Positions 23,516 through 61,959 of a stretch of 64,000 nt of DNA are shown one piece after another. Position numbers and translations under genes: made by a program. The DNA is from Candidatus Loosdrechtia aerotolerans. Lineage in GTDB: Bacteria; Planctomycetota; Brocadiia; Brocadiales; Brocadiaceae. The notes beneath the pieces were generated by a model. It was not told the origin of the DNA and ran no database searches. It saw nothing but the letters and a program-made list of their open reading frames with translations. The DNA is taken from assembly GCA_021646405.1 (NCBI GenBank), contig SOER01000015.1:1-64000 (forward strand), in the 5' to 3' direction. The stretch's first letter is position 1. Every line of letters starts with the position of its first letter.

Positions 23516-23697
23516 CAGCACACGATAGATACATTACTTTGCAAAAATGCCAAATGATATTTTGATGCAATCTTTAACAAAGCGTTGTAGATATTTAAAC
23601 TATATCCTTTCCTGATAATATCTCTCATAAGAAACCAAGGGGTCGGTATGCTATCACCTTCGTAAGCTAAAAGCAAACAAATTTTACCGAACCTCTT

Positions 23698-25410: not shown

Positions 25411-25880
25411 AAAATCTCTTCTTCCTCCTTTTCTTCTCTATGTTTCTTTGTTTTTTTAGCCTGTTTGACCTCTTCCGCAGTCACAAATCCATCCTCATCA
25501 GTATCCAATTTAAGGAAAAGTTTAACAGCCTTCTCTCCGGCTTTTTTCTGTACAAAATCGGTAATTTCTTCTTTCGTTAGCTTCCCATCTTCATTCGTAT
25601 CAACTTCGGACAGTTTAAATTTTTTTATCTTTTCTCCTTTTAATTCATTTTTTGTTAAAAAACCATCGGTATTGGTATCCATTTTTTCAAACTTTCCGGT
25701 AATCCTCTCCCCGGATTTTTCTTTTACAAAGAGAACTATCTCATCTTTGGAAACCTTTCCATCCTTATCAGCATCGGCAGCAGCAAGTTTTGACAGTAAG
25801 CCCTGACCCTTCACTACAGGTATTGAAATGAGAAATGCCACAGAAAAAACAATACAAACATGTAAACCTTTCGTCTTCAC
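25407..25880 (-). CDS. Secreted EF-hand calcium-binding protein
   Basis: 157 aa. A signal peptide (about 1-25) is followed by four EF-hand loops with canonical acidic ligands: DADKDGKVSKDE, DTNTDGFLTKNE, DTNEDGKLTKEE and DTDEDGFVTAEE. The C-terminus is a KKTKKHREEKEEEE tail. Being exported, it probably binds calcium at the cell surface, perhaps cross-linking or sensing the acidic glycan of this locus. GTG start. Coupled by overlap to the carbamoyltransferase gene, an odd pairing worth noting. Confidence 0.88.
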   Translation of the reverse strand: MKTKGLHVCIVFSVAFLISIPVVKGQGLLSKLAAADADKDGKVSKDEIVLFVKEKSGERITGKFEKMDTNTDGFLTKNELKGEKIKKFKLSEVDTNEDGKLTKEEITDFVQKKAGEKAVKLFLKLDTDEDGFVTAEEVKQAKKTKKHREEKEEEEIL

Positions 25881-40419: not shown

Positions 40420-42086
40420 TAAAAATATCCGAGATCTCGCAACGTTTTACTTATTTTTTCAGATTCTTCATTACTCAAAACCCCCTCTCCTCTTTTTACC
40501 TCAACTTTAGAAGCTGAACTGTGAGTAACTGGATGATTCTCCAAATATTCTTTTGTAAAAACCTCGCTGAGAACTCTGCCATCCATGTCATCAGGAACGG
40601 GAATCCCTAAAATATTAAGAATGGTAGGGGCAACGTCAATAATTTTTGCGCCATGAATAGTCGAGTTTGCTTTTATACCCGGTCCCTTTAGGATAAAAAT
40701 GCCTTCAAATCTGTGAGTACCGGAACTTTTGTTTGGTAAACCAAAGAATCCTTTACGGTATATCTCCTTTTGTGCAATGCACTCGGCCCCTTTCATTTTT
40801 ACAAATATATCGGCTGCATCATCAAGATAAGGGCCCTCGTATATTTCCTCTTTTTTTACTGCCTCGATGTCTAAAGGTTTTCCACTCGTCGGGTCTTTCA
40901 ATTCTTTTAGTTTCTCCATAATGGAATTCCTGACATCTTCATATTCTTTCCCCCTCTCAACGATACCACAAGGTTCTCTACCCTTCAGGTTAATGTATAC
41001 TCCCTGTTCTGAGTAGTTTCCAGCATATGCCCTGGTTCTTTTCCAATCAATAAAAAATGGAATGTTAAGTCCTTCCCTCGGATCAACAACCTTTCCAAGA
41101 GCCTTAAGTTTATCTAAAGGTACTACCCATGCTACCCCGGGAAATCCGAACCTTCTCAAAGCCTTGTAAAAGATATGGGGAAACCGTATTCGCCATAAAG
41201 GAGAAAAGATATTTTTAAACGCCAGGAAGCCTTCTTTGTGCAGCCAATTATTTATGAAAAATGCGAGCTTTTCCGGCCCGGCTCCATGGTCAGAGACAAC
41301 CATTACGGGAATATCATCATCTATCCTTTTCAAGATTTCTCCGATAGCTTCATCTATTTTTTCGTAAAACTCACCGATAACATTTTCATATTTTTTTGAT
41401 AAAGCAGGCTCATGAAGGGGATGTTCTTTATCAAAGAACTTCCAGAAATGATGTTGCATGGTATCAGCACAAAAAAATACAGGCATAAATACATCCCATT
41501 CCTTATTATCCATGAGATAGAGGATTGATTGCTTCCTTACCTCAACTATTTGCCTCCACTCCTCAATGAACCTATCAAGATTATTGGTATAAAAACTCTC
41601 AAGGTCCCCGTAATGAACACGATACTCGCCAAATCGCTCTTGTATTTCCTCCATAAGCTCCGGAGGATGGGAAAAATTTTTTCCTCCATTCATGGCATGT
41701 TGTAATCCCGGAATTACAAAACCGTTTATCTTCTCAGGAGGATGAGTAATTGGCAGATTAATAATTCCGGTCCGTAATCCGGAATCAGAGAGTATCTTCC
41801 AAATGGTTTTTGCCTTAATGTATCTGGCATTCATTGCGGGTCTCACATAACCATATGAAGGGGAAGCATAGAAATCAAAGACTCCGTGTTTCCCCGGATT
41901 TTTCCCCGTCATAAGGGAAACCCATGCGGGAGGTGTTACCGGTGGAGTAGTCGATTGCAACTGTCCGGAAGTGCCCTCCTCCATAAGCTGAGCTAAATTG
42001 CGCAATTTACCATTTCTTATCAATGGCTTGATGATATCAAACGTTCCACTGTCGATACCTATTATCACCATCTTTCTTTTATGCAT
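40419..42086 (-). CDS. Alkaline-phosphatase-superfamily hydrolase (type I phosphodiesterase-like)
   Basis: 555 aa. N-terminal IGIDSGTFD holds the first metal-binding Asp; PPVTPPAWVSLMTGKNPGKHG carries the nucleophile Thr/Ser region; MVVSDHGAG is the C-terminal Asp/His pair and GTHRFEGIFI the last His. Such enzymes split phosphodiesters or phosphomonoesters of lipids, nucleotide sugars or glycan modifications. It is related to the two plus-strand genes at 61.9-64 kb. I chose the ATG at 42086 (AAGGGCG upstream); the longer frame starts with TTG. A signal peptide is absent, so it probably works in the cytoplasm. Confidence 0.85.
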   Translation of the reverse strand: MHKRKMVIIGIDSGTFDIIKPLIRNGKLRNLAQLMEEGTSGQLQSTTPPVTPPAWVSLMTGKNPGKHGVFDFYASPSYGYVRPAMNARYIKAKTIWKILSDSGLRTGIINLPITHPPEKINGFVIPGLQHAMNGGKNFSHPPELMEEIQERFGEYRVHYGDLESFYTNNLDRFIEEWRQIVEVRKQSILYLMDNKEWDVFMPVFFCADTMQHHFWKFFDKEHPLHEPALSKKYENVIGEFYEKIDEAIGEILKRIDDDIPVMVVSDHGAGPEKLAFFINNWLHKEGFLAFKNIFSPLWRIRFPHIFYKALRRFGFPGVAWVVPLDKLKALGKVVDPREGLNIPFFIDWKRTRAYAGNYSEQGVYINLKGREPCGIVERGKEYEDVRNSIMEKLKELKDPTSGKPLDIEAVKKEEIYEGPYLDDAADIFVKMKGAECIAQKEIYRKGFFGLPNKSSGTHRFEGIFILKGPGIKANSTIHGAKIIDVAPTILNILGIPVPDDMDGRVLSEVFTKEYLENHPVTHSSASKVEVKRGEGVLSNEESEKISKTLRDLGYF

Positions 42087-42129
42087 TTTTTTTCGCCCTT
42101 CAGATAAAAACAATTAATTCTCTCCGCCA

Positions 42130-43608
42130 TCAAAAAAATATCATCCAATTTCTCCGGTCAGGATTACTTCTTAAACTGTTAACCGACGAAGTTATCTTTT
42201 GCCGGAATTCTTTAAGAGAATAGACAAAGAGTGCGTATAATATCAGTGTCAAAAATAAAAGTCCAATAGTATTTTTGTAATATTGGCAGGTTAATAACAG
42301 TGTAAAAAAGATACCAGTTGCTAGAATCAAAATCTTCCGTAATGAACCCTGTATCTCCAGTCTTCTTATACCCCAGATACGCTGTAAAAGGTAATTCCTT
42401 AAGAGGGTTTCAATTATCTTTGTTGCAAGAAAGGCTATTGCAGCACCAACAAAGCTATAATAGAAAATTAATGGTATGACAAGAATAAGATTTATACCAA
42501 ACATCAGCAGTGCCCAGGGAACATACCGTTTTATCTCCCTGGATGCGGAAAGGGTCAGGGTTACAGGAATATTAAAGATGTGAAAGGCATAAGCCCAGCC
42601 AAGAATGGTTAATGCAGGAGCTGATGGAAGGTATTCCATGCCAAAGATAAAGGTGATAATTTCTTTAGGAAAAAATGTAGTTGCAAGGGTAAGAGGAACT
42701 ATGATTAACGTAAAAAGTACTTTTGTTGATTTTGCAATAACATCCCGTACCATAGTTTGATTTTCTATATTTGAAGACATTCTGGGAAGAGCTGCTAACC
42801 GGAAACTTTCAGGAATCATCAAGGCATTCTGACATACGGAAGAAGAAGAATTATAATATCCCATAGCCGTCTCTTTCATAAAAGGACCAGGGAGTTTGGA
42901 AAGAAGAAGGATATTAATATTATTTGTAGCATGTTGAAGGAATGTGATAACAGCGAAGGGTGTTGTTTTCACCAACAAATCCTTTACAATAGAAAGATTG
43001 AAGGAAAATTTATATTTAAGAAATTTCTTTCTTACCCAACTGCCTGAGATCACCGCCCCAAGCAAACTACCGAAACAAGAGATAAAAATGATACCATTTA
43101 AACCATATCCCAAATAAAGGGCGATGATATTGAAAATAGTACTTAAAAAGGATATCAGAATTGAAACAAAGGAGGAAACCTTAAACCTCTCAAAGGCTAT
43201 ATATAAGATCGAGAAAGATCCTGAGAACGCAGAGAATATTGCTGCAACCCCGGCTATGGAAATAAGGTATTTAACATCTTTACTGTATCCCAGAATGTTT
43301 ATCACTAAGATAAGAACGGGATAAAGGAGAAGCATAATCCCTACCCTGAGGGAAAGAATATTGTTAAATAATACTTCAACCCTTGACCTGTCTCTGGATA
43401 TCTCCCTCACAGCCATAGGAAACAGACCAAAATTGCCAAAAGAGGAGAAGAATACCATCAGGGTGCCGATAAAAGCGTATAAACCAAAATCTTTTGGACC
43501 AAGAACTCTTGCTGCGTAGGCAATGAAGAAAAGAGAAAACAATTTACTCATTATCTTGGAGATAAAGACAAATCCTGTATTTTGTATGACACTGTTTCTA
43601 ATAATCAA
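42130..43608 (-). CDS. Wzx-like flippase (MOP superfamily)
   Basis: 492 aa with 12-14 predicted transmembrane helices. The N-terminal GFVFISKIMSKLFSLFFIAY and VLGPKDFGLYAFIGTL are typical of polysaccharide exporters of the RfbX/Wzx group. It would flip the lipid-linked or acyl-linked glycan across the membrane. TTG start with GTGAG upstream. It sits between the free ACP and the hydrolase, joining the acyl-chain genes and the glycan genes. Confidence 0.9.
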   Translation of the reverse strand: MIIRNSVIQNTGFVFISKIMSKLFSLFFIAYAARVLGPKDFGLYAFIGTLMVFFSSFGNFGLFPMAVREISRDRSRVEVLFNNILSLRVGIMLLLYPVLILVINILGYSKDVKYLISIAGVAAIFSAFSGSFSILYIAFERFKVSSFVSILISFLSTIFNIIALYLGYGLNGIIFISCFGSLLGAVISGSWVRKKFLKYKFSFNLSIVKDLLVKTTPFAVITFLQHATNNINILLLSKLPGPFMKETAMGYYNSSSSVCQNALMIPESFRLAALPRMSSNIENQTMVRDVIAKSTKVLFTLIIVPLTLATTFFPKEIITFIFGMEYLPSAPALTILGWAYAFHIFNIPVTLTLSASREIKRYVPWALLMFGINLILVIPLIFYYSFVGAAIAFLATKIIETLLRNYLLQRIWGIRRLEIQGSLRKILILATGIFFTLLLTCQYYKNTIGLLFLTLILYALFVYSLKEFRQKITSSVNSLRSNPDRRNWMIFF

Positions 43609-43617: not shown

Positions 43618-43950
43618 TCACTTTTGCCCAGGCTGTGTAGTATTAAGGTGGGTATACAGGAACTCTACGAGATCCGATATTTTTAAATCATTCACATCAT
43701 AGTCGTCTGATAGAAAAAGTTTTTGGAATGGCAATCCCTGCCTTTGAAAGCGTTTTTCAATTGCAGCAGCAAGTTGCACTAATTGAATAGATTCTAAAGC
43801 AAGATCAGCTATAAGGCGTGTTTCTGCTCCTATCGTATCGGAAAAACCTCTCTCCCAATCAGAGGATATATCGTTCAAAATAGAGAGGAGATCACACAAT
43901 ATCCTGTCCCTGTTAAGGTGGTTTTTATCTTTTAGTTCAACTGTTTCCAT
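43618..43950 (-). CDS. Discrete acyl carrier protein
   Basis: 110 aa, longer than housekeeping ACPs. IADLALESIQLVQLAAAIEKRF holds the phosphopantetheine Ser (LES in place of the usual DSL). An N-terminal extension of about 40 residues is hydrophilic. It lies 63 bases after the PKS/PPTase gene and is probably loaded by that PPTase. As a free ACP beside synthases that lack a thioesterase, it is a good candidate to carry the finished chain to the acyltransferase. Confidence 0.88.
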   Translation of the reverse strand: METVELKDKNHLNRDRILCDLLSILNDISSDWERGFSDTIGAETRLIADLALESIQLVQLAAAIEKRFQRQGLPFQKLFLSDDYDVNDLKISDLVEFLYTHLNTTQPGQK

Positions 43951-44013
43951 TTTTCTTAATCTTTATATTGTATGTATTAAGGGTTTATAAAAGTAATACG
44001 AACGCGACCGACG

Positions 44014-47000
44014 CTATACCAGTGAAATTGCAAAAGCGAAGTCATTCTCGTATCGCGTATATGCGATAAAAGACATTCCCCGATATGCAGGGAACTGATT
44101 TGCTAATTCTCCTGCAAGGGAGAGAAACACTCTCCCGGTCTCTTCCTCCAATTTTTGTATTACAAGATTGTTCGGAAACCCTATCATCCCTTTCCCGAAT
44201 GCCTTTGCAACAGCTTCCTTGGCACACCAGAGGCGAAGCATCCATTCTTCTTTTTTCAGTTGAAAGACAGGTGCAAGTTTCGCTTCTTCCTCTGCACTGA
44301 AAATTATCCTCTCTAATTCCTTGTGATTCTGATTTGTCCGTTCCATATCAACGCCTACACCGAGATATCCGTTTCGTTCTCCAGCAACAGCCACTGCACT
44401 CCCCGCTGAATGGGTAATAGAAAGAGATATATGGCATCCAAGCATTTCTATAAACTTACCTTTGACAACAGGACGGCCATTTTCATCCGCCGCAATTTCA
44501 ATATCAGAAGGAGACACTTTTCGCTGATATCGGTTCCTCAAGAAGAGGCGGACTGCATCCTTAGCTACAAGCCTGCCAAGCAGCCATTCTGTTCTCCGTT
44601 TCTCAATCCTGGTAAGATGAAACCATGTCTCCAGCTCTTGCTGATTGAGGATATTCCGGGCAAGGGTCTGAATTTGTGATTTGCATTCATTTTCCGAAAT
44701 GCGGCAACATTGAAACCCTAATGAAGAAGGCAAACAAGAGATAAGTTCCGGATATGATGTGCTTAACCGAACATCGAAAAGAGCGCTATTTTTGGCTATG
44801 AATTTCGACATGATTTCTTGTTGTATGAATAAGAATTGATCCATTGTTTGCAGATACTCTTGCATAATTTTAGGCCGAAAACTATCATATGGCCGGAAAT
44901 GCATCCCTTGCATTGACTGCATCGATGATAAATGGTCTGTTATCGGTGAAAAATCAAACGAGGGAGAAGTATTGATATCCTTATCATGTAGTTGTTTTTT
45001 ATCATCTTTCTGATGATGAGAATTTTCTTCTTGAAGTGGTATCTTATTTTGTACGTGATGTTTTACATCTGTCTGATTTGAAGAGGTTACCGGAAAAACT
45101 GGTGTATCTGCCGATATACTGCTTTTACCGGTATTCTGCATTTGTAATACGGGTAATTCCAATGTCAGCTCTATTGTACCTTGCTTCTTTACAGATGTTG
45201 TAGTATGTTCCTCTTCGACCTCAAACGAAATACGCTGTGGTTCTCTTCGCGAGTAAAGATAATCCAGGTGCATGTTTACACCATGAGCAGCCAGTAATCC
45301 AATCATGTAGTTAAGTTGCGTGATGCCCGGGGTATGGGGTACGTTAGAAGGTACAGCTACATATTGACGATTTTTGAGTATATCATCAACAAAACTCGTA
45401 AGGTTTCTCCTGGGGCCTACCTCTACAAATATTCGTACTCCTGCATCATATAACGATTCAATAGTTTCACGAAAGCGCACCGGCTGAGCCCACTGCTCTG
45501 ATGCAATTCTCCTGATTTCAAGAGGATCCTGAGGATAGGGTTCTGTTGTGGCACATGAATATACCGTGGTATGTGGAGGCACAATCCTCCTATTTTGGAA
45601 GAGAGAAAAAAAACGATTACATACCGACTGGTACATCGGTGTATGATAGGGGCGGTTGAATGGCAATAGGCTGCAAATGGCTCCCTGGTTTTGCAGGTGG
45701 TTGATGGCATTGTCTGCCGCCGATTCTGTGCCGCAAAGAATCACCTGATGCGGACAATTATCCATTGCAATGTAAAGAGATTCTGTATTTTCTAAAATCA
45801 GGGATGATACTACTGCAGGGTCAATATTACCCACGGTTATAAGTTTTGCAACTGGAATTTTTTCCGTTACAAAGGGAGTAAGGTGAAACAGATCGAGATT
45901 GAATGAAATAATCTCATCTTCATTTTGAATATCCAGAGCGCCTGATGCAAGTAAAGCGGTATATTCTCCGCTACTGTGGCCAACCAATACATGAGGCTGG
46001 ATTCCCAAACGACTAAGCAATTTAAACAGGGCATAATCCGCATAAAATGCCGCCGCTACCGCAAAGTCCAAACGCCAAAGTTCACTCTCCAATTTTACAG
46101 GAGAAGCAGGTTGAAGATGTCTCGGTGGAAATAATACCTGGCTGGGAAGAATATCCCTTTTGCTATTCAGGAAGGCGCGGTCTGCAAGGTCGAAACATTT
46201 TCTCATCTCTGGAAAATTTAAACTTAAGTCGGCAAGCATATTGACATATTGTGAACCTTCGCCGGGAAAAAGGAATGCCAGTGTTCCTTCTTGTGCAAGT
46301 GGTTTCTCAAAAAAGAAGATTCCGCTTTGATCTTTGATTTTTGTACACTGAGGATCGGCTAAGCGTTTCATGAGATACGTAAGCTTCTTCTCCAGATCTT
46401 TCACAGAATTTGCAATAATGGCAGACTTGTAATGTGATTCTGAAGATGTGCAATTCAGCGTATAAGCCAGATCTTTCATTTTTAGTGTTGGCTCACGGGA
46501 CAGGAGCCGGAGAAGTTGCTCACCATTTTTAATCAGGTCATCACGAGTGTCTCCTTGAATAATAAAGACCTCCGTATCCCATGTATGTATCAGGCTGGGA
46601 GCACTGTCTTCATTGATTTTAGTGTATTCCTCTAAAACAGCATGTGCATTAATTCCCCCGAAACCAAACGCACTTACCCCTGCCCGCCGCGGCTCAGGCT
46701 TCCCGTGAATCCACGGCCGTGTTTCAGTGTTAATGTAGAAAGGAGTTTTCTCAAGTTCGAGTTTTGGGTTTGCCTCATCGTAGTTCAGGGATGGAGGAAG
46801 TGTCTTATGATAAAGAGCCAAAGCTGTTTTAATAAACCCGGCGATACCTGCTGCTGTTATAAGGTGTCCAATCATAGATTTTACCGACCCCACGGCACAT
46901 AATGAATACGGTCCGTTTCGTGGAGCAAAGACCCCGTTTAATGCCTTGATTTCAGTAATATCTCCCAGTGGTATGCCGGTACCGTGGGCTTCTATGAACC

Positions 47001-48018
47001 CTATAGTATCAGGTGAAACGCCAGCAACTTTATAAGCCCGTTGTAAAGCCAGAACTTCTCCTTCCAGACGTGGCGTAAGCAGGCCGAGTGCACGACCGTC
47101 ACTAGCAACGCCAATACCTTTGATTATAGCATAAATCCGGTCATTATCCCGTTCTGCATCTTCCAGGCGTTTCAGTATAACCATTCCTACTCCTTCACCA
47201 ATCAGGATCCCATCGGCGTCCTTATCAAAGGGACGAACCTGTCCCCTTCTCGATAATGCATTGATTCCAGAGAAACAATACAGAAGGGGAGGCGATGCAA
47301 AAGAATGTATTCCACCAGCAATTACCATATCACACTGCTTACAAAGCAAATTTTGAATTCCAGTTTCAATAGCAATCAAAGCAGAGGCGCAAGCCGCATC
47401 CACAACATAATTTGGGCCCATAAGGTCAAGCCGATTGGCTATACGGCCAGTTATTACATTCGAAGTGAGACCCGGCACAAGTTCCATACCGAGGGGGGGG
47501 AGGCTCGATCTCAATTCGTTTTTAATCGCTTCCAGTTTTTCCTGGGAATACTCGGGATGAAGATGCTTTAAAATCTGAATGGTTTGATCAATAATCAAAC
47601 AATGTTGAATAACATTTGTATGACCACGGCTAAAATGTGAGCCTTTACCTATAATTACTGTACTCTGTTCCCGATTGAAAGGCCGGTCTAAATAACCAGC
47701 ATCAGAGAGCGCCTCATACGCAGCCCGTAAGGCGAGAAAATGGCCTGGTTCTCCCCCTTCAATGGTACTTGGCATGATACCATACTTAAGGGGATTAAAC
47801 TGGGCAAGATCTTTAAGATATCCCCCTTTTTTACAGTAAATCCGGTCTTTAAGCATTGCATCTGGACCTAAAACGTCTTCATTTCCCCAACCTACGGGAG
47901 GATCCGAAATTGCGTCTACTTTCGATACAATATTCTGCCAGTATGTCTGTACGTTTGGGGCACCGGGAAAGATACAAGACATACCGATAATGGCAATGCT
48001 ACCGCTAACTGGCTTCAT
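44014..48018 (-). CDS. Polyketide synthase KS-AT-phosphopantetheinyl transferase
   Basis: 1334 aa. Ketosynthase (about 5-465) with C210 in VDAACASA and both His in EAHGTG and KSMIGH, so it should be active. Acyltransferase (about 590-900) with S682 in GHSSGEY and a later RPYHTPM. A 200-residue Gln/His/Ser-rich linker follows (about 905-1110). The C-terminus is a Sfp-type phosphopantetheinyl transferase: D1224 in GVGVDME and WCAKEAVAKAFGKG. There is no ACP, reductase or thioesterase. The start at 48018 has GGGAG upstream and overlaps the giant synthase by 14 bases; the longer frame would overlap by 86. With the upstream protein it forms a two-component synthase that self-activates. Confidence 0.92.
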   Translation of the reverse strand: MKPVSGSIAIIGMSCIFPGAPNVQTYWQNIVSKVDAISDPPVGWGNEDVLGPDAMLKDRIYCKKGGYLKDLAQFNPLKYGIMPSTIEGGEPGHFLALRAAYEALSDAGYLDRPFNREQSTVIIGKGSHFSRGHTNVIQHCLIIDQTIQILKHLHPEYSQEKLEAIKNELRSSLPPLGMELVPGLTSNVITGRIANRLDLMGPNYVVDAACASALIAIETGIQNLLCKQCDMVIAGGIHSFASPPLLYCFSGINALSRRGQVRPFDKDADGILIGEGVGMVILKRLEDAERDNDRIYAIIKGIGVASDGRALGLLTPRLEGEVLALQRAYKVAGVSPDTIGFIEAHGTGIPLGDITEIKALNGVFAPRNGPYSLCAVGSVKSMIGHLITAAGIAGFIKTALALYHKTLPPSLNYDEANPKLELEKTPFYINTETRPWIHGKPEPRRAGVSAFGFGGINAHAVLEEYTKINEDSAPSLIHTWDTEVFIIQGDTRDDLIKNGEQLLRLLSREPTLKMKDLAYTLNCTSSESHYKSAIIANSVKDLEKKLTYLMKRLADPQCTKIKDQSGIFFFEKPLAQEGTLAFLFPGEGSQYVNMLADLSLNFPEMRKCFDLADRAFLNSKRDILPSQVLFPPRHLQPASPVKLESELWRLDFAVAAAFYADYALFKLLSRLGIQPHVLVGHSSGEYTALLASGALDIQNEDEIISFNLDLFHLTPFVTEKIPVAKLITVGNIDPAVVSSLILENTESLYIAMDNCPHQVILCGTESAADNAINHLQNQGAICSLLPFNRPYHTPMYQSVCNRFFSLFQNRRIVPPHTTVYSCATTEPYPQDPLEIRRIASEQWAQPVRFRETIESLYDAGVRIFVEVGPRRNLTSFVDDILKNRQYVAVPSNVPHTPGITQLNYMIGLLAAHGVNMHLDYLYSRREPQRISFEVEEEHTTTSVKKQGTIELTLELPVLQMQNTGKSSISADTPVFPVTSSNQTDVKHHVQNKIPLQEENSHHQKDDKKQLHDKDINTSPSFDFSPITDHLSSMQSMQGMHFRPYDSFRPKIMQEYLQTMDQFLFIQQEIMSKFIAKNSALFDVRLSTSYPELISCLPSSLGFQCCRISENECKSQIQTLARNILNQQELETWFHLTRIEKRRTEWLLGRLVAKDAVRLFLRNRYQRKVSPSDIEIAADENGRPVVKGKFIEMLGCHISLSITHSAGSAVAVAGERNGYLGVGVDMERTNQNHKELERIIFSAEEEAKLAPVFQLKKEEWMLRLWCAKEAVAKAFGKGMIGFPNNLVIQKLEEETGRVFLSLAGELANQFPAYRGMSFIAYTRYENDFAFAISLV

Positions 48019-51000
48019 TCTTTTTCTCCCGAATTGGTGCAGCACAGCCAACAACCCTATTGAGATCTTTACTGCCTGACGCTTCCACACCTTCCATAAG
48101 GGCCACTATCTGCCCGGATGCATTAAGAAAGTATATGTTAGTCGAGATAATATGACCGTTCATACTAGCGGATGCATGTAAGTAGCAATAAACAGATGTA
48201 TCAATACGGGAGCTAAAGCGGCGGTACAATTTAAAGCCGGTAGGGAGCACTGTCATGTTATAATGAAAACGTGCCCAGAGAAGGGCTAGTTGTAAACCAC
48301 TGTCGATAAGTACCGGATCAACCAACCACTTGCCCCTGGTTTGTTTATGAAAAAATCCATCTGGTGAAGATGTACGAAGGCGAGCGCGTATTCCATACTG
48401 ATTAATTCCTTCTATAAGAGAAATACCATGAAAACAAGAGCCGTGAAATAACCACTCCCGGTAGATATCTGTTACTCCCATAGGAAATGGATTCAGTTTA
48501 TGCAATGTATCAGAATTGTACGATGGAGGAGAAGCAAGTTGCCTCTCCATCTGTACAGTAGCACAATAATTGGGATAGTGTATTTGTCCCAACTTGGTAA
48601 TCTCCACAGCAATATCCAGAACCTTACTGCTGGAAGAATGACTGGTTCGGGGTTTTGCTGCTATATGGATTTGTGCACTCCTGCCTTCTATAACAATTCC
48701 TTTACGAATTGCCAGAGATTGGATACCTGTGATCTCCCAATCGGGGTAAGCTTGTTGAATAACCTCTGCCATTAGCTCCATTGCAACAGCCATTGGCAAT
48801 ACAGGTTTCCCATACAACTGGTGATCATGAAGGTATAGGTCAACGGAAGGATCCAATGTCCTTACTAATTCTATAGTGCCATCATCTTCCATCTTCAATT
48901 GCGATCCATTAAGGAAGGGGAATGCATCCACATCAGAGGATGATGGGGTAATTCCGATATCAACCCAGGGCCCATTCCCGAGAACAACTTCGACTTCTCC
49001 TTTCCGGCCAAATTTGAGTTCCTCATCAAAGACACGGTATCCCGCAAGAGGTGGAATAAGCTGGACGCCTCGTTCCTTAAACAACCTTTTTACATCAACA
49101 GAAACCATTCCTTTCCTATCCCAGGGGCCCCAGTTGATTGCTACCACCCGCCCCGGCCATTGTTTATCTAAATAAATTGCAAGTTTATTCATAACCTCAT
49201 TTGCGGCCGCATAATCACCCTGGCCCCTGTTGCCAAAACATCCAGCCATTGAGGAGAAGAAAACCAGAAATTTAAGTGAATCAGCCCGTAATTTACGGCT
49301 CAGGATAAAGGCACTATTGACTTTTGTATCAAAAACCCGGTCAAAAGAATCAGGAGACTTATCACTGATTAATTTATCCTCGATAATTCCGGCACCATGA
49401 ATAACACCATCTAACCGACCATGTGAATGATAGATTTCATCAATGAGATTGCTCAATGCTTGCTCATCAAGAACGTCTACCTGATAATAGTATACGGCTG
49501 AACCAGCCTGCTGCATTGCTGATAAATTATTCCGCATTTCTCTTTCCAGCATTAGACGGGAGTAAGCAGCCTCAACCTGTGCAGGAATAACTCTTTGCCC
49601 CGATTCCCGCATTCGGTTGATCAATGCTGTTTTTAGTTCCTGGGCTGAGACAAGACAAGCAGTGTCAGGCGATTCATGAGGAGCAGGTAGTGGGCTACGT
49701 CCAACAAGCACAAGGGTAGGACGGTATTGTTTCGAGAGTGCGCAGGCAACCTCAGCCGTGATACCTTTTGCTCCTCCGGTAATGAGGATAACCCAGCTTG
49801 AGTCGATAGCCAGATTAGCCTGCATGTCCTTATCGAATAGAGCTTTCTTTGGCCGCAAGATTAATCGCTGTGCATCCCTATAGCCTACTTCAACCTCTGT
49901 ATCTCCACTAGTCATCTCGCAGAATAAATAATTTGCTGCATCCGGAATTGATAGTTTAGGATCTATGTGAACTACTTTGCAGCAAACACGCGGCCATTCT
50001 AGTGCCAGAGTCTTTACTAATCCGGCAATACTACCCTGACCGGGGAAAAAATGAGTGAATTCGTTTGTATTACTAGCAAACACACCTCCCATTCCGGTTG
50101 CCGCAACCAACCAACTACACCCCATTTCTGCTGTACGTCTGATATCATGGCCTGCAGCTCTGGCAAGATAAAAGAGACTCTTGATTTCCAGGCAAAGACG
50201 AGCTTTCAAACTTTCCATATCCATCTCTTCCAGGGTTGTCTTCAATTTTAATGGAAGAAGATGAATAATACCGGCAAGTGAACCGTAATTTTCCCGGATA
50301 AGAATAAGGAGTTCATCTACTGCAGTTGGGTTCATCAGGTTTGCTGTATAGAGATGTGAACTTACTTCACGAGTTTCATCTCCCATCCGCACGAGAACAG
50401 CACACCCCCCGAGCTGATTTATTTTATCAGAAAATGCCAGTGCAACACCTTGTTCATCATCGGTAATAATGAAAACTGCATTAGGAGTTAACTGTTGTTG
50501 TTGTTTGTTAAGTAGAGTATTGATTGATGCGAAGAGAAAGCGTGGAACATCGGCTTTGTTATCCGTTTCGTTGGAATTCGAGTGAGTTTGTACTATTTCT
50601 TGCTCCTTTAGAACCGGTATATTCGTTTGATCCTCAAGAGGTGATTGAGACATGGCATCCATATAGTCAATGATGCCCTGCAAGGTCTTTATTTTGACCA
50701 ATTCCTCCATGTCAACACTTGTCTGTCTATCACCAGAGAGGTAGAAACGTTGAAGAGCACCCAGTATTTCAACCCGTTTGATAGAATCTATACCAAGATC
50801 TGCTTCAATATCGAGATCAAGACCAAGCACCTCCTGTGGATAACCAGTCCGCTCGCTTACCACCTGAAGGAGCTGTGCCGTCAATTGCTTTCTATCAAGC
50901 AAAGGTTGCTGTTTCTCTTCTGAAGGAGTCTGGTTGGTTGTGATCTGCCGTTGCTCTGGAACCGATTTATCTGTATGCTCTCCGGATTGTGACTGTACTG

Positions 51001-54000
51001 CAGCACTTATATAATTAATGATAGCACGCAAGGTTTTTATTTTAGTTAACTCTTCCATTGCAATATTTACCGATCCATACCGTGAAAGGTAAGTTCGTTG
51101 AACAGAACCAAGGATCTCAACCCGCTTAATGGAATCAATTCCCAAATCAGCTTCAATATCAAGATCGAGGCCAAGCATTTCCTGTGGATAACCGGTTCTT
51201 TCACTTATAGTATGAAGGAGTTGGGCTGTCAACTGTTCTTTATCAACAACAGAAGATGGCGTTTGTACAGAAATTGGATTGACCTGTCCTGAATCTTCAG
51301 TACGTGCCGGAATATCGGAAGATTCAGAATAAACTGGCTCTTTTTTCGTCTGGAAAAATTCCTGAGGTGGTGGTAATACTGTTTCCACCAATTGAGAGTC
51401 AACAGAGTTTTGTGTCTGAACGCATGTTGTATCTGATGGTTCTGTAGAGAATACAGAATTTGATAGTGGATTTTGCCAACCTGTTGGACTCTGGAGATAA
51501 GCCTGCATGACTTGTTGCTGAGTTTCCAGAAACCGGCCCATTAGTTTTTGGAATTGAAGCATGACATGATTCTCCTCTTCACTTGCCGTTGGTTTCATGG
51601 ATAAAGCTGCCTGGGAATGGGGAGAAACCGCCGATTCAGAGACGAAGGATGAAGATCCCGGATAATCCGGCTTAGATTCAGGTATTTTGGGAGAAGTTTC
51701 TATATTCGCTGTAGTAGAATCGGGCATTAACATAGACTTTTCAACTTCACGCATGACATGTTCAATATTTTTGTGATTACCAACTTTTTCTTGTGTTTGT
51801 GATTTTATTGGCGGTTTCATTTCTGTAGTCCTGTGAAAGGGATAAACTCGACTTCCGGTTACCATAAAGGTAGTAAGTGACGGAGGAATACTCCTCGTTT
51901 CATCAATGAGGGCATCAAGCTTAAGCTGGCGTACTTGTCTTCCCTTGTAAAGATGATCGAGTTGGAGATGTACTCCATGAGCCATAAGTTGACCCAGTGC
52001 ATGGTGGAGTTGTAAGATACCGGACCGACCGGAGACATTGAGAGCCACGGCCAGGAAATGCTGTCCTTCAAGTATCTGCTGTGTCAAACTTGTCAGTATA
52101 TTTCTCGGTCCAACTTCTATAAAGATGCGTGCTCCGTCATGGTACATTGCATTAATCTCGTTGACAAATTTTACCGGATTGATCAGATGCTTTCCAAGAA
52201 GTGCCGTGATGTCTTCAGGGTCCTGAGGATAGGGCATCGAAGTGGTGTTAGAAAAAACACTCAACCGAGGCGGAGCAATGGTAATAGTTTTAAGAAACTC
52301 TGTTAAACGCTTTTGTGCTGACGCAACCAAAGGAGAATGGAATGCGCAGGACACCGGTATGGGGCGTGCACGCATCCCTTGTGCCTCAAAGCATTTTATG
52401 GTCTCTTCGATACTAGATCGTTTTCCTGATACGATGGTCTGCCTTGGGGCATTAAGGTTAGCAATCCAAATATCCTTAACTGATGACAGAACTTCGCTGA
52501 TAGCTTCCGGTCCTGCATCGACGGCAGCCATTGCCCCGAGATCTTGTCCGGCCATTTCTATGATAAAACGCCCTCTTGCTTCGGAAATCGCATACAACGC
52601 CTCTTCGCTGAAAACATGAGCGGCACAGAGGGCAACGTACTCACCGTAACTATGTCCTGCAACCATATCCGGGTTGAGTCCTAGAGCTTGTATTAAATAA
52701 AACAGACCCATTTCTGCTGCACCAAGCGCCGGTTGCGCAATATTCGTTTTCATAAGTGCTTCCAGGCAAGCACGATCTTCGTCTTTATTAAAGCGGGAAG
52801 GTGGAAAAATATAGGAACTAAGGGGTTTAGGAAAACAAGTAGCCAGAGTACGGTTTGCAAGTTCGAATTGTTCCCGTATTTCAGGAAATAGTATTGCTAG
52901 ATCAGAAAGCATATCAAGATACTGCGAACCTTGGCCAGGAAACAGGAATGCAATTTTACCAGAAACAATATTTGATCTCCCGGCAAAGTAAATCCCCTTC
53001 GGGTCTTGAATTTGATTACAATCCGGTCTTTTTAAAAGTTCGATAGAGAGCGTTAATTTTTGATATAAATCATCAAGAGAAGTTGCTACGAGGGCAAGTT
53101 TAAGTCCGGAACTGCTCTCTTTAAATCGCTTCCATATTGTATAGGCTAAATCGTTCAGGTTCGGCTTGGCACTGTGCGACAGCGCATGATTAAGTTTCTC
53201 CAAGGTGTTTACCAAATCCTCTTGAGAGTTCCCCGCAAAGAGAAAGAGTTCGCTTGGCCAGTGATTTAAGACGGAATCAAAAGTTGGCATGGGAAAGTTT
53301 TCCGTATGTTCTTCAAGTACGGCATGAAAGTTTGTTCCGCCAAAACCAAAGGCGCTAACACCGGCCCGGCATGGTTGGTCAGCAACCCTGGAAATCCATG
53401 GGTGTGCTTCGGTATTTACATAGAATGGACTTCCCGTTAGTATCGAATTTGGTTTCTCAATACCAATCGTTGGTGGGAGGGTTTTATAATAGAGCGATAA
53501 TGCAATTTTAATCATGCTCGCTACTCCAGCCGTGGATTTTGTATGCCCGATCATTGATTTAACCGATCCGATAGCACAACTCTGAGGTATTGCACCAGCC
53601 CTTTCAAATACTCGCTTAAGCGTTTCAATTTCTGCACGGTCTCCGGCGACCGTTCCCGTGCCATGGGCTTCAATTAATTCAACAGTAGCAGGAGAGAAAC
53701 CCGCTTTAAGGTACGCCCGGTCCAGTGCTAAAGACTGGCCCTCCGGGTGGGGAGCTGTCAACCCTTTCGCCTTTCCATCACTGGAAGCTGAAACGGCCTT
53801 TATTACAGCGTAAATTTTATCTCCATCCCGCTTAGCATCAGCAAGGCGTTTTAAAACAAGAATAGCGACCCCCTCGCTAATTACAATACCATCGGCGTTC
53901 TCATCAAAAGTCTTGCACCTCCCCCGGGGTGAAAGGGCCTGTGTTTTACTAAAACAGAGATATGAAAACGGATTCTGCATCGTATCAGCACCACCAACAA

Positions 54001-56725
54001 TTACTACATCGCTGGTTTCACTCTCAAGCTCCCTGACTGCAAGGTAGACCGCGGCGAGGGAGGAAGCACATGCAGCATCTACCGTGTAGTTAGCTCCACC
54101 GAGATTAAACCGATTGGCCACTCTGCCGGCAGTGACGTTGAGAAGAATACCGGCAAAAGAATCTTCTGTCCAGTCCGGAAGCCGGGCCAGGGTGTCAGGA
54201 GGAATGGTATCCATAAACATCGGTAAAGAGGAGCGGAAGGTATACAACTGCCCTAAATCAGAAATTCCTCCGCTCGTCCCGAGAATTACCGAGGTTTTTT
54301 CCCGGGGAAACGGACGGTTTGCATATCCTGCATCCTCAATTGCCTTTTGAACTACCTCAAGGGTAAGTAACTGGAGCGGTTCGATCGAAGACAGAGAATT
54401 TGGCGGCATGCCGTACTTGACCGGATCAAAGGGAACGGGGTCAATAAACCCTCCCCATTTGGAATAAATTTTATCACGAGCATCACGATGAGGATCGAAA
54501 TAGAGTTTCCAATCCCATCGGTCTGCAGGAACTTCAGTAATTGCATCAACCTTATTCAGGATGTTCTCCCAATAGGTTTTTACATCACCTGCTTTTGGTA
54601 ATATACATGCCATACCAATAATCGCAACATCAGAGGGCTTTATTTTTGTGGAAGTTGAAATTCGAGTTATTCCCGGCTCTGCCAACTGCATCAACCGTTC
54701 GGTACTTCTTACAGAAATATCATGGTGAAGATCTGTTACAGTACAGACACGATCACGGAGCGCTGCTAGTTGCCCAATCATGTACATTCCCTGATTATAT
54801 TGCTCTTCACTATTGAGAATTTTATATTTAGGGGTATTCATATCCGACCTGTCCTGTGGATTGCGGATAACACCTTTAGAGGCAATTCGTAACCGCCCAA
54901 GATTCATCTCCTCAAGAAGAGTGCGGATTTCTTCAGCAGATCTTCCTTCAGCAGTTAACCGTAATTTCTCTTGGAAAAATGTCTTTATGTAAGGTGTAAT
55001 GGCGCAGCGGGTGGCATGTCCCGGCCCACTTTCCACAACAGCGGTTTTTGTACATTGTATTGCGACTTCTTGAAAATCTTTGTTAATGGCATTGGTAGCT
55101 AATGCGTCTTCGGTGAAGAGATATGCAGTGCCGAGAAGTACCCCGATCTGTATTCCCCGTTCGGCTAACGGGGCTGCCATGGCCGTGACCATCGATGCCG
55201 AGAGCGCGTCATGAATACCGCCGGCAAAGAGGATACAATAGTTAGTCATTTCTTTGTCATGGAGGGACTCCAAAAGTACGTCAATTGCAGAGTTCCATAA
55301 CACAAAACTTGACCGGGGCCCAATATGACCACCACATTCCCGACCCTCAAGAATAAAACGCCGTGCCCCGTTTTCAATAAACATCTTAAGAAGGCCCGGT
55401 GAAGGAACGTGAAGATACGTGCCAATACCATCCTGTTCAAGTATCCGGGATTGATCTGGCCGCCCACCGGCAATAAGAGCAAGCGAAGGCTTATATACCC
55501 GGACAACATCAAGCTGTTTTTGAAGGAGATCCGGGGAAACAAATCCGAGTATTCCAACCCCCCAAGGTTTGTTACCAAGAAGGTTTTTTGTTTCCTCCAG
55601 TATTTCTTTAATTTCTGCTGCATTCAGCATAGCCAGTGCTAAAAATGGCAGTGCCCCATTTTCAGCTACACTGGCAGCAAAGGAAGGTACATCACTAATC
55701 CTCGCCATAGGTCCTTGAACAATTGGATAGTGTGTTCCATGCGACTGCGCAAGCGGAGATCCTTGTTTGAGTGGAGAGAACATTTTCGCTGTTTGAATAT
55801 GCGAAACAATTGCCTGGCGGAACCCACCAAGAATCCCCCCTACTGTATGAAATTGCTGTGCCAGATTTGCAGCAAATGACGCATCCTGGCCGAGAAACCA
55901 GATATTTTGATCCGGAGAATCCCACCCCACACGATTCCTGATCTCCTGATACCAGGTAGCAAGGATATCAGAGCGGGAACGAGAGTCTGAGGAAAGGGCA
56001 TGAACTATACCGGATAATTCCTGAACAGAAGAAATACCCGACCGGTTGTATACCCGATATGCCTCACTAACCTCACTTCCGATACAAATATTTTCACTAC
56101 CATCCATACGGGATATAACTGTCTTAACCGCTTCAGGTAATGCAGATTCCTTCGCTAATGCAAGTTGAACATCTAAAACTATCCCTGCCGCACCTGCAGC
56201 GTAACAGGCCGCTGCTGTATGCAGCCCGATGCCCCCCTGCACCCAAACAGGCAATGATGCATTCTTTAATACCTGCTGGAGGAGTATGAAGCTTGTTTCT
56301 TCACTCACCCGTCCACCCGCTTCATTCCCTTTAATAATAAATCCGTCTACCCCGGTCTTATTTCCCAGAAATGTCTGGTCAAGAGAGGTCACTTCCAGGA
56401 GAACGGTAACGTTCCGGTGCTTTAAGAGCTGGATGTGGTTGCTGAGGGTTTCAGAATCAGCATGCACAAGGATGACGGTAGTAATTTGTTCAGGGAGCTT
56501 GGATATAATGTTAGTTACAAAACGGTCCTCTCTTCCTGAAAGTTTAACACCACAACCTTTTTCTGCATAGGTAACCAATTGAGAAATGGAATGGAACGCG
56601 GCCTGTTCATCATAAGTATACTCGAGATCTATAATTCCTGTTTCCCCGGCCCGGCTGGCAGCAATTGCGATTGATGGATTTATCAGATTGGGAGGTGTTA
56701 GAGCAATGATTTGAAATGTTTGCAT
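48005..56725 (-). CDS. Giant iterative polyketide/PUFA-like synthase NMO-NMO-KS-AT-ACP-ACP-KR-DH
   Basis: 2906 aa. Two nitronate-monooxygenase-like (PfaD-type) modules lead: about 1-290 (NEAGGR, QGGIGLHT) and about 330-640 (GRECGGHIGP, FAGGIHDA). Then KS (about 697-1135; C886, EAHGTGTVAGD, KSMIGHT), AT (about 1250-1600; S1359 in GHSYGEY), a long disordered linker, two ACPs with pantetheine Ser 1865 and 1981 (both LGIDSIK), KR (about 2310-2560; TGGAKGI, Tyr about 2505 in YAAAN) and a hot-dog DH (about 2610-2890; H-x3-G-x4-P and D-x3-Q). The FMN modules probably serve as enoyl reductase. The set can extend, reduce and dehydrate a chain iteratively. No release domain. The layout is closest to PUFA synthases and heterocyst-glycolipid (hglE) synthases. 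Confidence 0.93.
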   Translation of the reverse strand: MQTFQIIALTPPNLINPSIAIAASRAGETGIIDLEYTYDEQAAFHSISQLVTYAEKGCGVKLSGREDRFVTNIISKLPEQITTVILVHADSETLSNHIQLLKHRNVTVLLEVTSLDQTFLGNKTGVDGFIIKGNEAGGRVSEETSFILLQQVLKNASLPVWVQGGIGLHTAAACYAAGAAGIVLDVQLALAKESALPEAVKTVISRMDGSENICIGSEVSEAYRVYNRSGISSVQELSGIVHALSSDSRSRSDILATWYQEIRNRVGWDSPDQNIWFLGQDASFAANLAQQFHTVGGILGGFRQAIVSHIQTAKMFSPLKQGSPLAQSHGTHYPIVQGPMARISDVPSFAASVAENGALPFLALAMLNAAEIKEILEETKNLLGNKPWGVGILGFVSPDLLQKQLDVVRVYKPSLALIAGGRPDQSRILEQDGIGTYLHVPSPGLLKMFIENGARRFILEGRECGGHIGPRSSFVLWNSAIDVLLESLHDKEMTNYCILFAGGIHDALSASMVTAMAAPLAERGIQIGVLLGTAYLFTEDALATNAINKDFQEVAIQCTKTAVVESGPGHATRCAITPYIKTFFQEKLRLTAEGRSAEEIRTLLEEMNLGRLRIASKGVIRNPQDRSDMNTPKYKILNSEEQYNQGMYMIGQLAALRDRVCTVTDLHHDISVRSTERLMQLAEPGITRISTSTKIKPSDVAIIGMACILPKAGDVKTYWENILNKVDAITEVPADRWDWKLYFDPHRDARDKIYSKWGGFIDPVPFDPVKYGMPPNSLSSIEPLQLLTLEVVQKAIEDAGYANRPFPREKTSVILGTSGGISDLGQLYTFRSSLPMFMDTIPPDTLARLPDWTEDSFAGILLNVTAGRVANRFNLGGANYTVDAACASSLAAVYLAVRELESETSDVVIVGGADTMQNPFSYLCFSKTQALSPRGRCKTFDENADGIVISEGVAILVLKRLADAKRDGDKIYAVIKAVSASSDGKAKGLTAPHPEGQSLALDRAYLKAGFSPATVELIEAHGTGTVAGDRAEIETLKRVFERAGAIPQSCAIGSVKSMIGHTKSTAGVASMIKIALSLYYKTLPPTIGIEKPNSILTGSPFYVNTEAHPWISRVADQPCRAGVSAFGFGGTNFHAVLEEHTENFPMPTFDSVLNHWPSELFLFAGNSQEDLVNTLEKLNHALSHSAKPNLNDLAYTIWKRFKESSSGLKLALVATSLDDLYQKLTLSIELLKRPDCNQIQDPKGIYFAGRSNIVSGKIAFLFPGQGSQYLDMLSDLAILFPEIREQFELANRTLATCFPKPLSSYIFPPSRFNKDEDRACLEALMKTNIAQPALGAAEMGLFYLIQALGLNPDMVAGHSYGEYVALCAAHVFSEEALYAISEARGRFIIEMAGQDLGAMAAVDAGPEAISEVLSSVKDIWIANLNAPRQTIVSGKRSSIEETIKCFEAQGMRARPIPVSCAFHSPLVASAQKRLTEFLKTITIAPPRLSVFSNTTSMPYPQDPEDITALLGKHLINPVKFVNEINAMYHDGARIFIEVGPRNILTSLTQQILEGQHFLAVALNVSGRSGILQLHHALGQLMAHGVHLQLDHLYKGRQVRQLKLDALIDETRSIPPSLTTFMVTGSRVYPFHRTTEMKPPIKSQTQEKVGNHKNIEHVMREVEKSMLMPDSTTANIETSPKIPESKPDYPGSSSFVSESAVSPHSQAALSMKPTASEEENHVMLQFQKLMGRFLETQQQVMQAYLQSPTGWQNPLSNSVFSTEPSDTTCVQTQNSVDSQLVETVLPPPQEFFQTKKEPVYSESSDIPARTEDSGQVNPISVQTPSSVVDKEQLTAQLLHTISERTGYPQEMLGLDLDIEADLGIDSIKRVEILGSVQRTYLSRYGSVNIAMEELTKIKTLRAIINYISAAVQSQSGEHTDKSVPEQRQITTNQTPSEEKQQPLLDRKQLTAQLLQVVSERTGYPQEVLGLDLDIEADLGIDSIKRVEILGALQRFYLSGDRQTSVDMEELVKIKTLQGIIDYMDAMSQSPLEDQTNIPVLKEQEIVQTHSNSNETDNKADVPRFLFASINTLLNKQQQQLTPNAVFIITDDEQGVALAFSDKINQLGGCAVLVRMGDETREVSSHLYTANLMNPTAVDELLILIRENYGSLAGIIHLLPLKLKTTLEEMDMESLKARLCLEIKSLFYLARAAGHDIRRTAEMGCSWLVAATGMGGVFASNTNEFTHFFPGQGSIAGLVKTLALEWPRVCCKVVHIDPKLSIPDAANYLFCEMTSGDTEVEVGYRDAQRLILRPKKALFDKDMQANLAIDSSWVILITGGAKGITAEVACALSKQYRPTLVLVGRSPLPAPHESPDTACLVSAQELKTALINRMRESGQRVIPAQVEAAYSRLMLEREMRNNLSAMQQAGSAVYYYQVDVLDEQALSNLIDEIYHSHGRLDGVIHGAGIIEDKLISDKSPDSFDRVFDTKVNSAFILSRKLRADSLKFLVFFSSMAGCFGNRGQGDYAAANEVMNKLAIYLDKQWPGRVVAINWGPWDRKGMVSVDVKRLFKERGVQLIPPLAGYRVFDEELKFGRKGEVEVVLGNGPWVDIGITPSSSDVDAFPFLNGSQLKMEDDGTIELVRTLDPSVDLYLHDHQLYGKPVLPMAVAMELMAEVIQQAYPDWEITGIQSLAIRKGIVIEGRSAQIHIAAKPRTSHSSSSKVLDIAVEITKLGQIHYPNYCATVQMERQLASPPSYNSDTLHKLNPFPMGVTDIYREWLFHGSCFHGISLIEGINQYGIRARLRTSSPDGFFHKQTRGKWLVDPVLIDSGLQLALLWARFHYNMTVLPTGFKLYRRFSSRIDTSVYCYLHASASMNGHIISTNIYFLNASGQIVALMEGVEASGSKDLNRVVGCAAPIREKKNEAS

Positions 56726-56889
56726 ATAATTTAAAATGGCATATTTATATAGTTAGCGAAAACACAGATCATGTAATTCAGTTAAACACCCGGATTATTC
56801 AAGCAGTTTTCATTAAAATGAATGGCATTCTTATTGCCGTAAAAAGGATTTCGAGATAATATTTAGGCATACTTCAAATAAACTTCTAA

Positions 56890-57750
56890 TTAAGGCTGGG
56901 TTATTATAGGTTGAACAATAATAGGTGCACCTTCTTTACCCGAAAAGATTTCCTCTATACGATCAGCCAATACGACCCCCTGTTCAAGATACACAAGCGG
57001 CCGCACGATGTTCTCAAAATGTTTGAAAAATCGATCAACATTAGCAATAAAAGTCCGGGGTACATAAACGACATCGCCTCTTTGCAAGACGACGTTTCGG
57101 GACAACTTTCCTTTCTTTCGTGCATTATCAAAATCAAGATTATAGGCATTAACTTCCGGGTTCTCAAGTCCGCCTCTGATGAGTAAAACACTCGTATCTT
57201 TTCCATCCATAGTAAACCCGCCGGCCATCGAAATTGCTTCGTATATAGTCATCGGTGGGTCAATACGGTATACACCGGGATTCCTGACCTCTCCTAAAAT
57301 AAATATCTTTTGACCTTTGAATAACGTAACCTCTATACTTATCTGAGGAGATACTAGATAAGTGGAATAGGCCTCTTTTATTTTCTCCCTAAGCTGGTGT
57401 ATGCTCAACCCTTCAGTTCGTATTTCACCTATCAAAGGAAAGCTATTTACACCGTCAGGCAAAACACGTACTTTTTTGTTTAAGTCACTATGCCTGTATA
57501 CCGTTACCTCAATTTCATCTCCAACACCTAATATGAATTCAGATATAACAACCTTTTCTTCTGCATCTACAGTATCAGAAAGTTCTCCATCTGTGTTATC
57601 CTTCACCTCTGTTGATTTTTTAATTATGGCGCTCCCATGATTTCTAAAACCCCTTTTTTTATAAACGCCACCAGATGTTATCACTCCCTGATTCTCTATA
57701 AAGAAAAGAATTACTAAGAATATTGAACAAATAGTAAAAACTCGTTTCAT
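56890..57750 (-). CDS. Wza-like polysaccharide export protein
   Basis: 286 aa. An N-terminal signal segment (about 3-22; no clear lipobox Cys) precedes a Poly_export domain (about 75-150; ILGVGDEIEVTVYRH, VRVLPDGVNSFPLIGEI) and one SLBB-like repeat (about 150-240; IFILGEVRNPGVYRI, TIYEAISMAGGF). It should form the outer-membrane or periplasmic export channel with the Wzz-like protein at 22.1 kb. It is the first gene of the locus, just behind the promoter at 57850-57878. The 164 bases to the giant synthase hold no clear terminator. Confidence 0.9.
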   Translation of the reverse strand: MKRVFTICSIFLVILFFIENQGVITSGGVYKKRGFRNHGSAIIKKSTEVKDNTDGELSDTVDAEEKVVISEFILGVGDEIEVTVYRHSDLNKKVRVLPDGVNSFPLIGEIRTEGLSIHQLREKIKEAYSTYLVSPQISIEVTLFKGQKIFILGEVRNPGVYRIDPPMTIYEAISMAGGFTMDGKDTSVLLIRGGLENPEVNAYNLDFDNARKKGKLSRNVVLQRGDVVYVPRTFIANVDRFFKHFENIVRPLVYLEQGVVLADRIEEIFSGKEGAPIIVQPIITQP

Positions 57751-57849: not shown

Positions 57850-57878
57850 ATTATAGTTTAGCTATTCTTATAAGTCAA
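57850..57878 (-). promoter_or_regulatory. Near-consensus promoter of the glycan/PKS locus
   Basis: On the minus strand TTGACT (57878-57873), 17-base spacer, TATAAT (57855-57850): a perfect -10 box and a five-of-six -35 box. Transcription should start at about 57843, leaving a leader of about 93 bases before the Wza-like ATG. All genes down to 21.5 kb lie in the same direction, with no strong terminator that I could find between them. Confidence 0.75.
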
Positions 57879-61919: not shown

Positions 61920-61959
61920 CCCCATACTCTTAAACAGGAAACAAAGAAGGTTAAATAAT

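Follow-up and report, generated by a model that had tools for sequence, protein, structure and literature searches.

Why should two type I iterative synthases be encoded between the exporter and flippase genes of a bacterial surface glycan locus? The locus lies in a 64,000-nucleotide stretch of DNA from Candidatus Loosdrechtia aerotolerans (assembly GCA_021646405.1, contig SOER01000015.1, positions 1 to 64,000), hereafter the window. The host genome (3.26 Mb, 99% complete) is placed in the family of the Ca. Brocadia genomes as a separate genus, and since it encodes hydrazine synthase alpha, the host is an anammox bacterium. The two synthases (PKS1, 2906 aa; PKS2, 1358 aa) and a free acyl carrier protein (ACP) sit between wza and wzx, in a locus where Wza, Wzx, Wzy, Wzz and glycosyltransferases occur all together, the complement by which a Wzx/Wzy-dependent exopolysaccharide locus is recognized. 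An earlier note on this DNA had placed the pair between a Wza-like exporter and a free ACP with a flippase, as the open reading frames (ORFs) and domains confirm, and had proposed an acyl-glycan pathway. Such a pathway is still the best reading, as the synthases proved to be tied to particular alleles of glycosyltransferase, GNAT and phosphodiesterase genes, whereas the note's argument from a missing thioesterase did not hold up. We regard the block at 35.8-56.7 kb as a candidate exchangeable cassette for the lipidation of a Wzx/Wzy surface glycan, an interpretation that we consider plausible, if not quite probable.

Distribution of the synthase pair in Brocadiaceae

The presence of the synthases within the glycan locus is real and, since it recurs in four further genomes, more than chance; it is conserved across two anammox genera, which upholds the earlier claim of such a union in an anammox bacterium. 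In a survey of 33 Brocadiaceae genomes the pair was found in five, namely that of the window, G020, G022, G011 (Ca. Brocadia sp. AMX1) and G032 (Ca. Brocadia MAG_8), all of which share the order Wza-PKS1-PKS2-ACP-Wzx, split over contigs in G032. In G020, G022 and G032, PKS2 and ACP are separated by an additional ORF or by remnants of ORFs. The free ACP is present in all five synthase-positive genomes and in none of the synthase-negative loci. Three Brocadia genomes (G030, G031 and the one-contig genome G024) display the empty site, with wza and wzx only 94-97 nt apart and the rest of the locus kept, while a related locus in G007 carries a stand-alone ketosynthase (KS) after wzx in place of the pair. 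The one-contig congener G001 has neither the synthase pair nor FAD oxidoreductase, GNAT or close GTb genes.

Some alleles may be decaying, since stop codons interrupt GNAT genes of G031 and, in G008, the FAD gene (L149, L156). Radical SAM genes, some of them with B12-binding domains, were found in sister loci (L143:12747-13622, L151:3139-4605, L037:12871-14436) and are absent from the window's locus. Stand-alone KS genes next to GNAT in G022:C17 and G011:C110 were dropped as independent support, as they are shared by descent and lie among cytochrome assembly genes.

Alleles co-inherited with the synthases

Proteins of the synthase-positive G020 were compared with those of the window, which is from another genus, and with those of the synthase-free G024, which is from the same genus. 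Four proteins were closer to the window in spite of the genus boundary, namely the glycosyltransferases GTb (79% identity versus 50% with G024) and GTa (70% versus 46%), the GNAT (59% versus 34%) and the phosphodiesterase (71% versus 39%). The backbone of the locus gave the reverse pattern, as seen for the FAD protein (72% with the window versus 83% with G024), the glycosyltransferase GTc (67% versus 85%) and Wza (54% versus 85%). Approximately unbiased (AU) tests rejected the monophyly of Brocadia for GNAT (p 0.003), GTa (0.003), GTb (0.03) and the phosphodiesterase (0.04), the last two values being close to 0.05 and not adjusted for multiple testing, and rejected a synthase-positive clade for FAD (p 0.004), GTc (4e-6) and Wza (0.007). 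Wzx leaned to the synthase-linked set (AU p 0.27); the identities of the carbamoyltransferase and Wzz tracked the genus, and the AU tests of these two and of PIG-L decided neither way. Neither identities nor AU test support PIG-L as a member of the exchanged set. The co-inherited set comprises the synthases, ACP, phosphodiesterase, GNAT, GTa and GTb, and the comparison thus supports a tie between the synthases and specific GTa, GTb, GNAT and phosphodiesterase alleles.

PKS1 is 61-67% identical between the genera, similar to the backbone genes, and the higher GC content of the synthases is accompanied by a third-codon-position GC equal to that of the neighbour genes. A recent horizontal transfer, as the higher GC might suggest, was rejected on the latter ground, and because of both features the synthase haplotype looks old rather than recently arrived. 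On the evidence of a few genomes, the synthase-positive and synthase-negative forms may represent two alternative haplotypes, both long-lived, of a single surface locus.

Domain composition of the synthases

PKS1 begins with two FabK/NMO-like barrels, followed by KS, acyltransferase (AT), two ACPs, ketoreductase (KR) and a dehydratase (DH) of the polyketide synthase (PKS) type (PF21089/PF14765). Our scans recovered the earlier domain list of KS, AT, two ACPs, KR, DH, two enoyl reductase (ER)-like modules and a phosphopantetheinyl transferase (PPTase), with no thioesterase domain in either synthase; what the list missed is that both synthases contain KS and AT, giving two KS-AT pairs, and that the first barrel lacks the histidine of the GGH motif. 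This motif (ECGGHIG) occurs only in the second barrel, which keeps its histidine, and the first barrel lacks it in the window and in all five relatives compared. The KS, AT and PPTase motifs of PKS2 are all intact. Since both KS domains retain the catalytic Cys/His/His (DAACAS, HGTG, GH), the second KS is not a chain-length factor. PKS1 exceeded the cut-off of the PfaA model TIGR02813 (1287.4 versus 1010.1 bits), while PKS2 fell below it (613). The label of a polyunsaturated fatty acid (PUFA) synthase did not stand: the only dehydratase family match in the pair is the PKS-type DH of PKS1, with none to the FabA type, though low-scoring remnants could remain; no KS of the pair lacks the active Cys as a chain-length factor would; and the KS belongs to a separate clade with tandem FabK-like barrels. 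With FabA-type DH and chain-length factor missing, a PUFA is an improbable product. Besides, in the PKS2 homologues of G032 and G041 (L051, L052, L044) AT and PPTase are separated by an additional DH-like domain, and the PKS2 KS is lost in G020, G022 and G011.

PUFA-type systems often work without a dedicated thioesterase. Relatives of these synthases elsewhere carry an alpha/beta-hydrolase gene that is absent here, and the step in the earlier note from a missing thioesterase plus a free ACP to chain transfer onto a sugar does not carry far. The thioesterase role is better seen as taken here by the putative pair of PIG-L and the N-myristoyltransferase-like GNAT.

Candidates for acyl transfer

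The genes as far as 21.5 kb do lie in one direction, as had been claimed (57750 to 21515 on a single strand, with intergenic gaps of -86 to 176 nt and a next gap of 602 nt), but they are not only glycosyltransferases and export parts, as those 3' of the synthases include a phosphodiesterase, PIG-L, a tandem GNAT, an FAD oxidoreductase, a GH39-like protein, an EF-hand protein, a carbamoyltransferase and a Wzz-like protein. The PIG-L gene overlaps that of the GNAT by 7 nt. In Pfam the GNAT matched Acetyltransf_9 only, with no match to the N-myristoyltransferase family. Its predicted structure (mean predicted local distance difference test score, pLDDT, 86) was searched against the PDB, and the 50 best matches listed were all N-myristoyltransferases (top E 2.6e-14, TM-score ~0.55), enzymes that transfer a long acyl chain to an amine. 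When a profile of the Brocadiaceae GNAT was run against 707 ORFs around 80 synthase homologues, two further GNATs were obtained, each directly downstream of ACP or PKS: in L112 (Chitinivibrionales, of another phylum) the GNAT gene overlaps the synthase ACP gene, and in L084 it directly follows PKS1.

The family is also found in 91 of 392 planctomycete genomes, and was rejected as PKS-specific for this reason. Some of its members in other planctomycetes are near polysaccharide deacetylases, sulfatases and glycan genes, and because some adjoin such deacetylases and sulfatases, the acyl donor may vary within the family. The phosphodiesterase was considered as well. Its fold search returned NPP and phosphonoacetate hydrolase folds only, leaving a specific transferase unsupported, and no signal peptide was seen, as for a cytosolic-type protein.

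Proposed pathway and alternative explanations

We surmise that the fused PPTase would activate the ACPs, and that PKS1 and PKS2 would jointly and iteratively build one long chain, for which full reduction is possible, and hand it to the free ACP. PIG-L would then de-N-acetylate an amino sugar in the repeat unit that GTa, GTb and other transferases assemble in lipid-linked form, the tandem GNAT would transfer the chain from ACP to the free amine, and the acylated unit would be flipped by Wzx, polymerised by Wzy/Wzz and exported by Wza. Wzx proteins favour their cognate unit (PMC6436433), and acylation before flipping would fit this preference, the linkage of Wzx here being statistically unsettled. 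What we observed are the gene content, the intact motifs, a conserved gene order, the empty site and the co-inheritance; all chemical steps, the acceptor and the chain we infer. The full scheme, in which an anammox Wzx/Wzy-exported polysaccharide bears a PKS-made fatty tail on its repeat-unit amino sugar, with lipidated and non-lipidated forms kept across genera as old, interchangeable alleles of a single surface locus, is possible yet somewhat doubtful.

Several points weigh against this scheme. The likeness of GNAT to N-myristoyltransferases is at the level of the fold, with 10% identity and a root-mean-square deviation of ~6.5 A; it is drawn from the best 50 matches listed, and these enzymes are very numerous in the PDB. 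Use of acyl-ACP by the GNAT is our proposal, and because the GNAT and PIG-L families also occur in synthase-free loci, this enzyme might accept a different donor, acetyl-CoA included. Covariation with the synthases was not seen for PIG-L, and the synthase-positive sample consists of five genomes from two genera, with G032 a mosaic. Moreover, the homologous synthases of other phyla are accompanied by an alpha/beta hydrolase but not by Wza/Wzx, and the synthase family therefore needs no glycan.

An unlikely, though by no means negligible, alternative is that the synthases make a lipid aglycone or anchor (a fatty acid, hydroxy-acid or alcohol) that GTa and GTb glycosylate directly in the manner of heterocyst glycolipids, yielding a small glycolipid or lipid-anchored glycan, with the GNAT performing ordinary N-acetylation. 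The covariation of GTa and GTb with the synthases would agree with it, as would the related HglE-type synthases, whose products are glycosylated, and the UDP-glycosyltransferases or sulfotransferases in some homologous synthase loci elsewhere; yet the GNAT allele covaries just as strongly, and no HglB-like thioester reductase was found among the locus proteins scanned. Family searches among the locus genes also found no priming sugar-phosphate transferase, which would speak for an aglycone but is uninformative, because synthase-negative alleles keep the same backbone. Slightly less probable still is an independent lipid or secondary metabolite, the synthase genes being merely co-inherited with the glycan locus as a haplotype without any joint product. 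A single replacement event can also give such linkage, and homologues in other phyla have no Wza-Wzx-Wzy genes nearby, but the same insertion point and operonic order in two genera, with PKS1 as diverged as the backbone, and the functional coherence of the covarying block (GNAT, glycosyltransferases, phosphodiesterase) argue for a joint product. That the synthases supply a ladderane precursor, on which the earlier note had speculated, is very improbable and was ruled out as their purpose, for although the host is an anammox bacterium and PUFAs have been suggested to be precursors of ladderanes, the pair lies within a glycan operon, occurs in only 5 of 33 Brocadiaceae genomes, is missing from the one-contig congener G001, and Rattray et al. 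reported no PKS-like enzyme in the ladderane-making Kuenenia (PMC2649909).

If the lipidation scheme is correct, it would represent a further route to amphiphilic exported polysaccharides, from an iterative PUFA-type synthase to Wzx/Wzy via an N-acyltransferase. Differences in surface hydrophobicity between strains of anammox bacteria, whose aggregation and granule matrix are important in wastewater treatment, would then have a genetic basis that can be tested. The synthase-positive and -negative alleles of one locus offer a ready natural comparison between strains, and within the synthase-linked set a single enzyme is left as the candidate for acyl transfer.

Promoter region and other features of the window

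The near-consensus promoter of the earlier note was retrieved upstream of wza. Promoter-like matches across the region are at chance level (47 versus 44 expected), while a TTG-N20-TA-N2-AT element lies at -67 to -128 of wza in seven of nine genomes, against an expectation of ~2% per 200 nt. Repeated inverted motifs, GAAACTCTGTTTCG / TTGGGAACA, occur at 58180-58330, within the long stretch of intergenic DNA that precedes the locus.

Features of the glycan locus in the window and the basis of their assignment
Feature	Position	Strand	Basis or remark
Promoter-like element TTGACT-17-TATAAT	57850..57878	-	11/12 consensus match; position kept upstream of wza in relatives
Wza-like outer-membrane polysaccharide export protein, 286 aa, locus gene 1	56890..57750	-	PF02563, SLBB; backbone gene, tracks species grouping
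PKS1 synthase, 2906 aa, psiER(FabK-like)-ER(FabK-like)-KS-AT-ACP-ACP-KR-DH	48005..56725	-	Domain scan; TIGR02813
PKS2 synthase, 1358 aa, KS-AT-PPTase	44014..48090	-	Domain scan, motifs
Free acyl carrier protein, 110 aa	43618..43950	-	DLALES serine motif
Wzx-like flippase, MOP family	42130..43608	-	PF01943/PF13440
NPP-type phosphodiesterase, alkaline phosphatase superfamily; synthase-linked allele	40419..42113	-	Family scan, identities, AU test, fold search
PIG-L family N-deacetylase	39658..40419	-	PF02585; HPDDD and HHDH motifs
Tandem GNAT, N-myristoyltransferase-like fold, candidate N-acyltransferase; synthase-linked allele	38597..39664	-	Pfam, structure model, AU test
GT4 glycosyltransferase GTa; synthase-linked allele	37280..38503	-	Family scan, identities, AU test
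GT4 glycosyltransferase GTb; synthase-linked allele	35839..37143	-	Family scan, identities, AU test
FAD/NAD(P)-binding amine-oxidase-like protein; locus backbone	34486..35829	-	Family scan, identities, AU test
Glycosyltransferase GTc; locus backbone	33168..34358	-	Family scan, identities, AU test
GT9-family glycosyltransferase	31982..33160	-	Family scan
GT4 glycosyltransferase	30883..31998	-	Family scan
GT4 glycosyltransferase	29763..30908	-	Family scan
GH39-like glycoside hydrolase-related protein	27462..29732	-	Family scan
Wzy/O-antigen-ligase-like polymerase	26018..27469	-	PF04932
Small EF-hand protein, several calcium-binding loops, overlaps carbamoyltransferase gene start	25407..25880	-	Family scan
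Carbamoyltransferase, NodU/CmcH type domains; found with and without synthase	23698..25410	-	PF02543 and PF16861
Wzz-like chain-length protein	22100..23521	-	PF02706

An ARAGORN call of tRNA-Pro (AGG) at 24693-24785 (-) lies within the carbamoyltransferase ORF and is probably a false positive. Divergent from the locus, 61837-64000 (+) encodes type I phosphodiesterases, one complete and one cut by the window end, and genes similar to these are multiplied in related glycan loci.

Comparison with known systems

In mostly non-subscription literature, our searches turned up neither a PUFA-type synthase previously reported from an exopolysaccharide locus nor a PKS from glycan loci of Brocadia, and a 2026 survey of PUFA-type hybrids does not mention planctomycetes (PMC13291983). 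The PUFA synthases PfaABCDE and the secondary lipid synthases share with the present pair the core of KS, AT, tandem ACP and KR, a FabK/PfaD-like ER and a PPTase, whereas here PKS1 has two ER copies fused at its N-terminus, the PPTase is fused to PKS2 and the DH is PKS-type; among the synthase types that Shulse and Allen (2011) list, none is described in a glycan locus (PMC3098273). The heterocyst glycolipid synthase HglE is likewise an iterative type I synthase related to Pfa with a product bound for a glycolipid, but a polymer export system is present here, and the KS clade of the window is separate (SH-like approximate likelihood ratio test 98) from the Fischerella paralogues L168/L169, which are HglE-like and not proven to be HglE itself. 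In Fischerella and other cyanobacteria (L102, L103 and others), the same synthase-ACP-phosphodiesterase module was seen with an HlyD-domain protein, and no product description was found for it.

By gene content, the Nod factor pathway (NodE/F-NodB-NodA-NodU, PMC5080398) resembles the locus in combining its own acyl supply and ACP, an N-deacetylase, an N-acyltransferase and a carbamoyltransferase. The parts themselves differ: here NodB has its counterpart in PIG-L, NodA in a tandem GNAT and NodE in an iterative PKS, and a Wzx/Wzy polymer takes the place of chitin oligomers; the carbamoyltransferase, moreover, is not specific to synthase-positive loci. Family scans gave no NodA, NodB or NodC orthologues and, among the genes scanned, no chitin-synthase-type GT2. 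We claim a likeness of logic only, not membership in this pathway. As to the transferase itself, N-myristoyltransferase is the best PDB fold match of the GNAT model, at 10% identity.

A further relative of the synthases is a widespread module. Homologues were identified in many phyla by a scan of genome contigs, often in the order PKS1-PKS2-ACP-phosphodiesterase with an alpha/beta hydrolase gene next in line (that gene cluster comprises 36 loci), and in the KS tree the window, Brocadia and a Tectomicrobia sequence lie inside the clade of this module, with tandem FabK-like barrels. The same N-terminal region of ~690 residues before the KS, an ACP beside PKS2 and often a type I phosphodiesterase are common to both, whereas the Brocadiaceae locus has Wzx, PIG-L, GNAT and glycosyltransferases instead of the alpha/beta hydrolase. 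As to whether such homologues always lie away from glycan loci, a question raised in the earlier note, they mostly do in other phyla, but all five Brocadiaceae pairs of this type are within a Wza-Wzx-Wzy locus. Judging by gene content and the KS tree, a synthase module of wide occurrence has in the Brocadiaceae been joined locally to a glycan locus.

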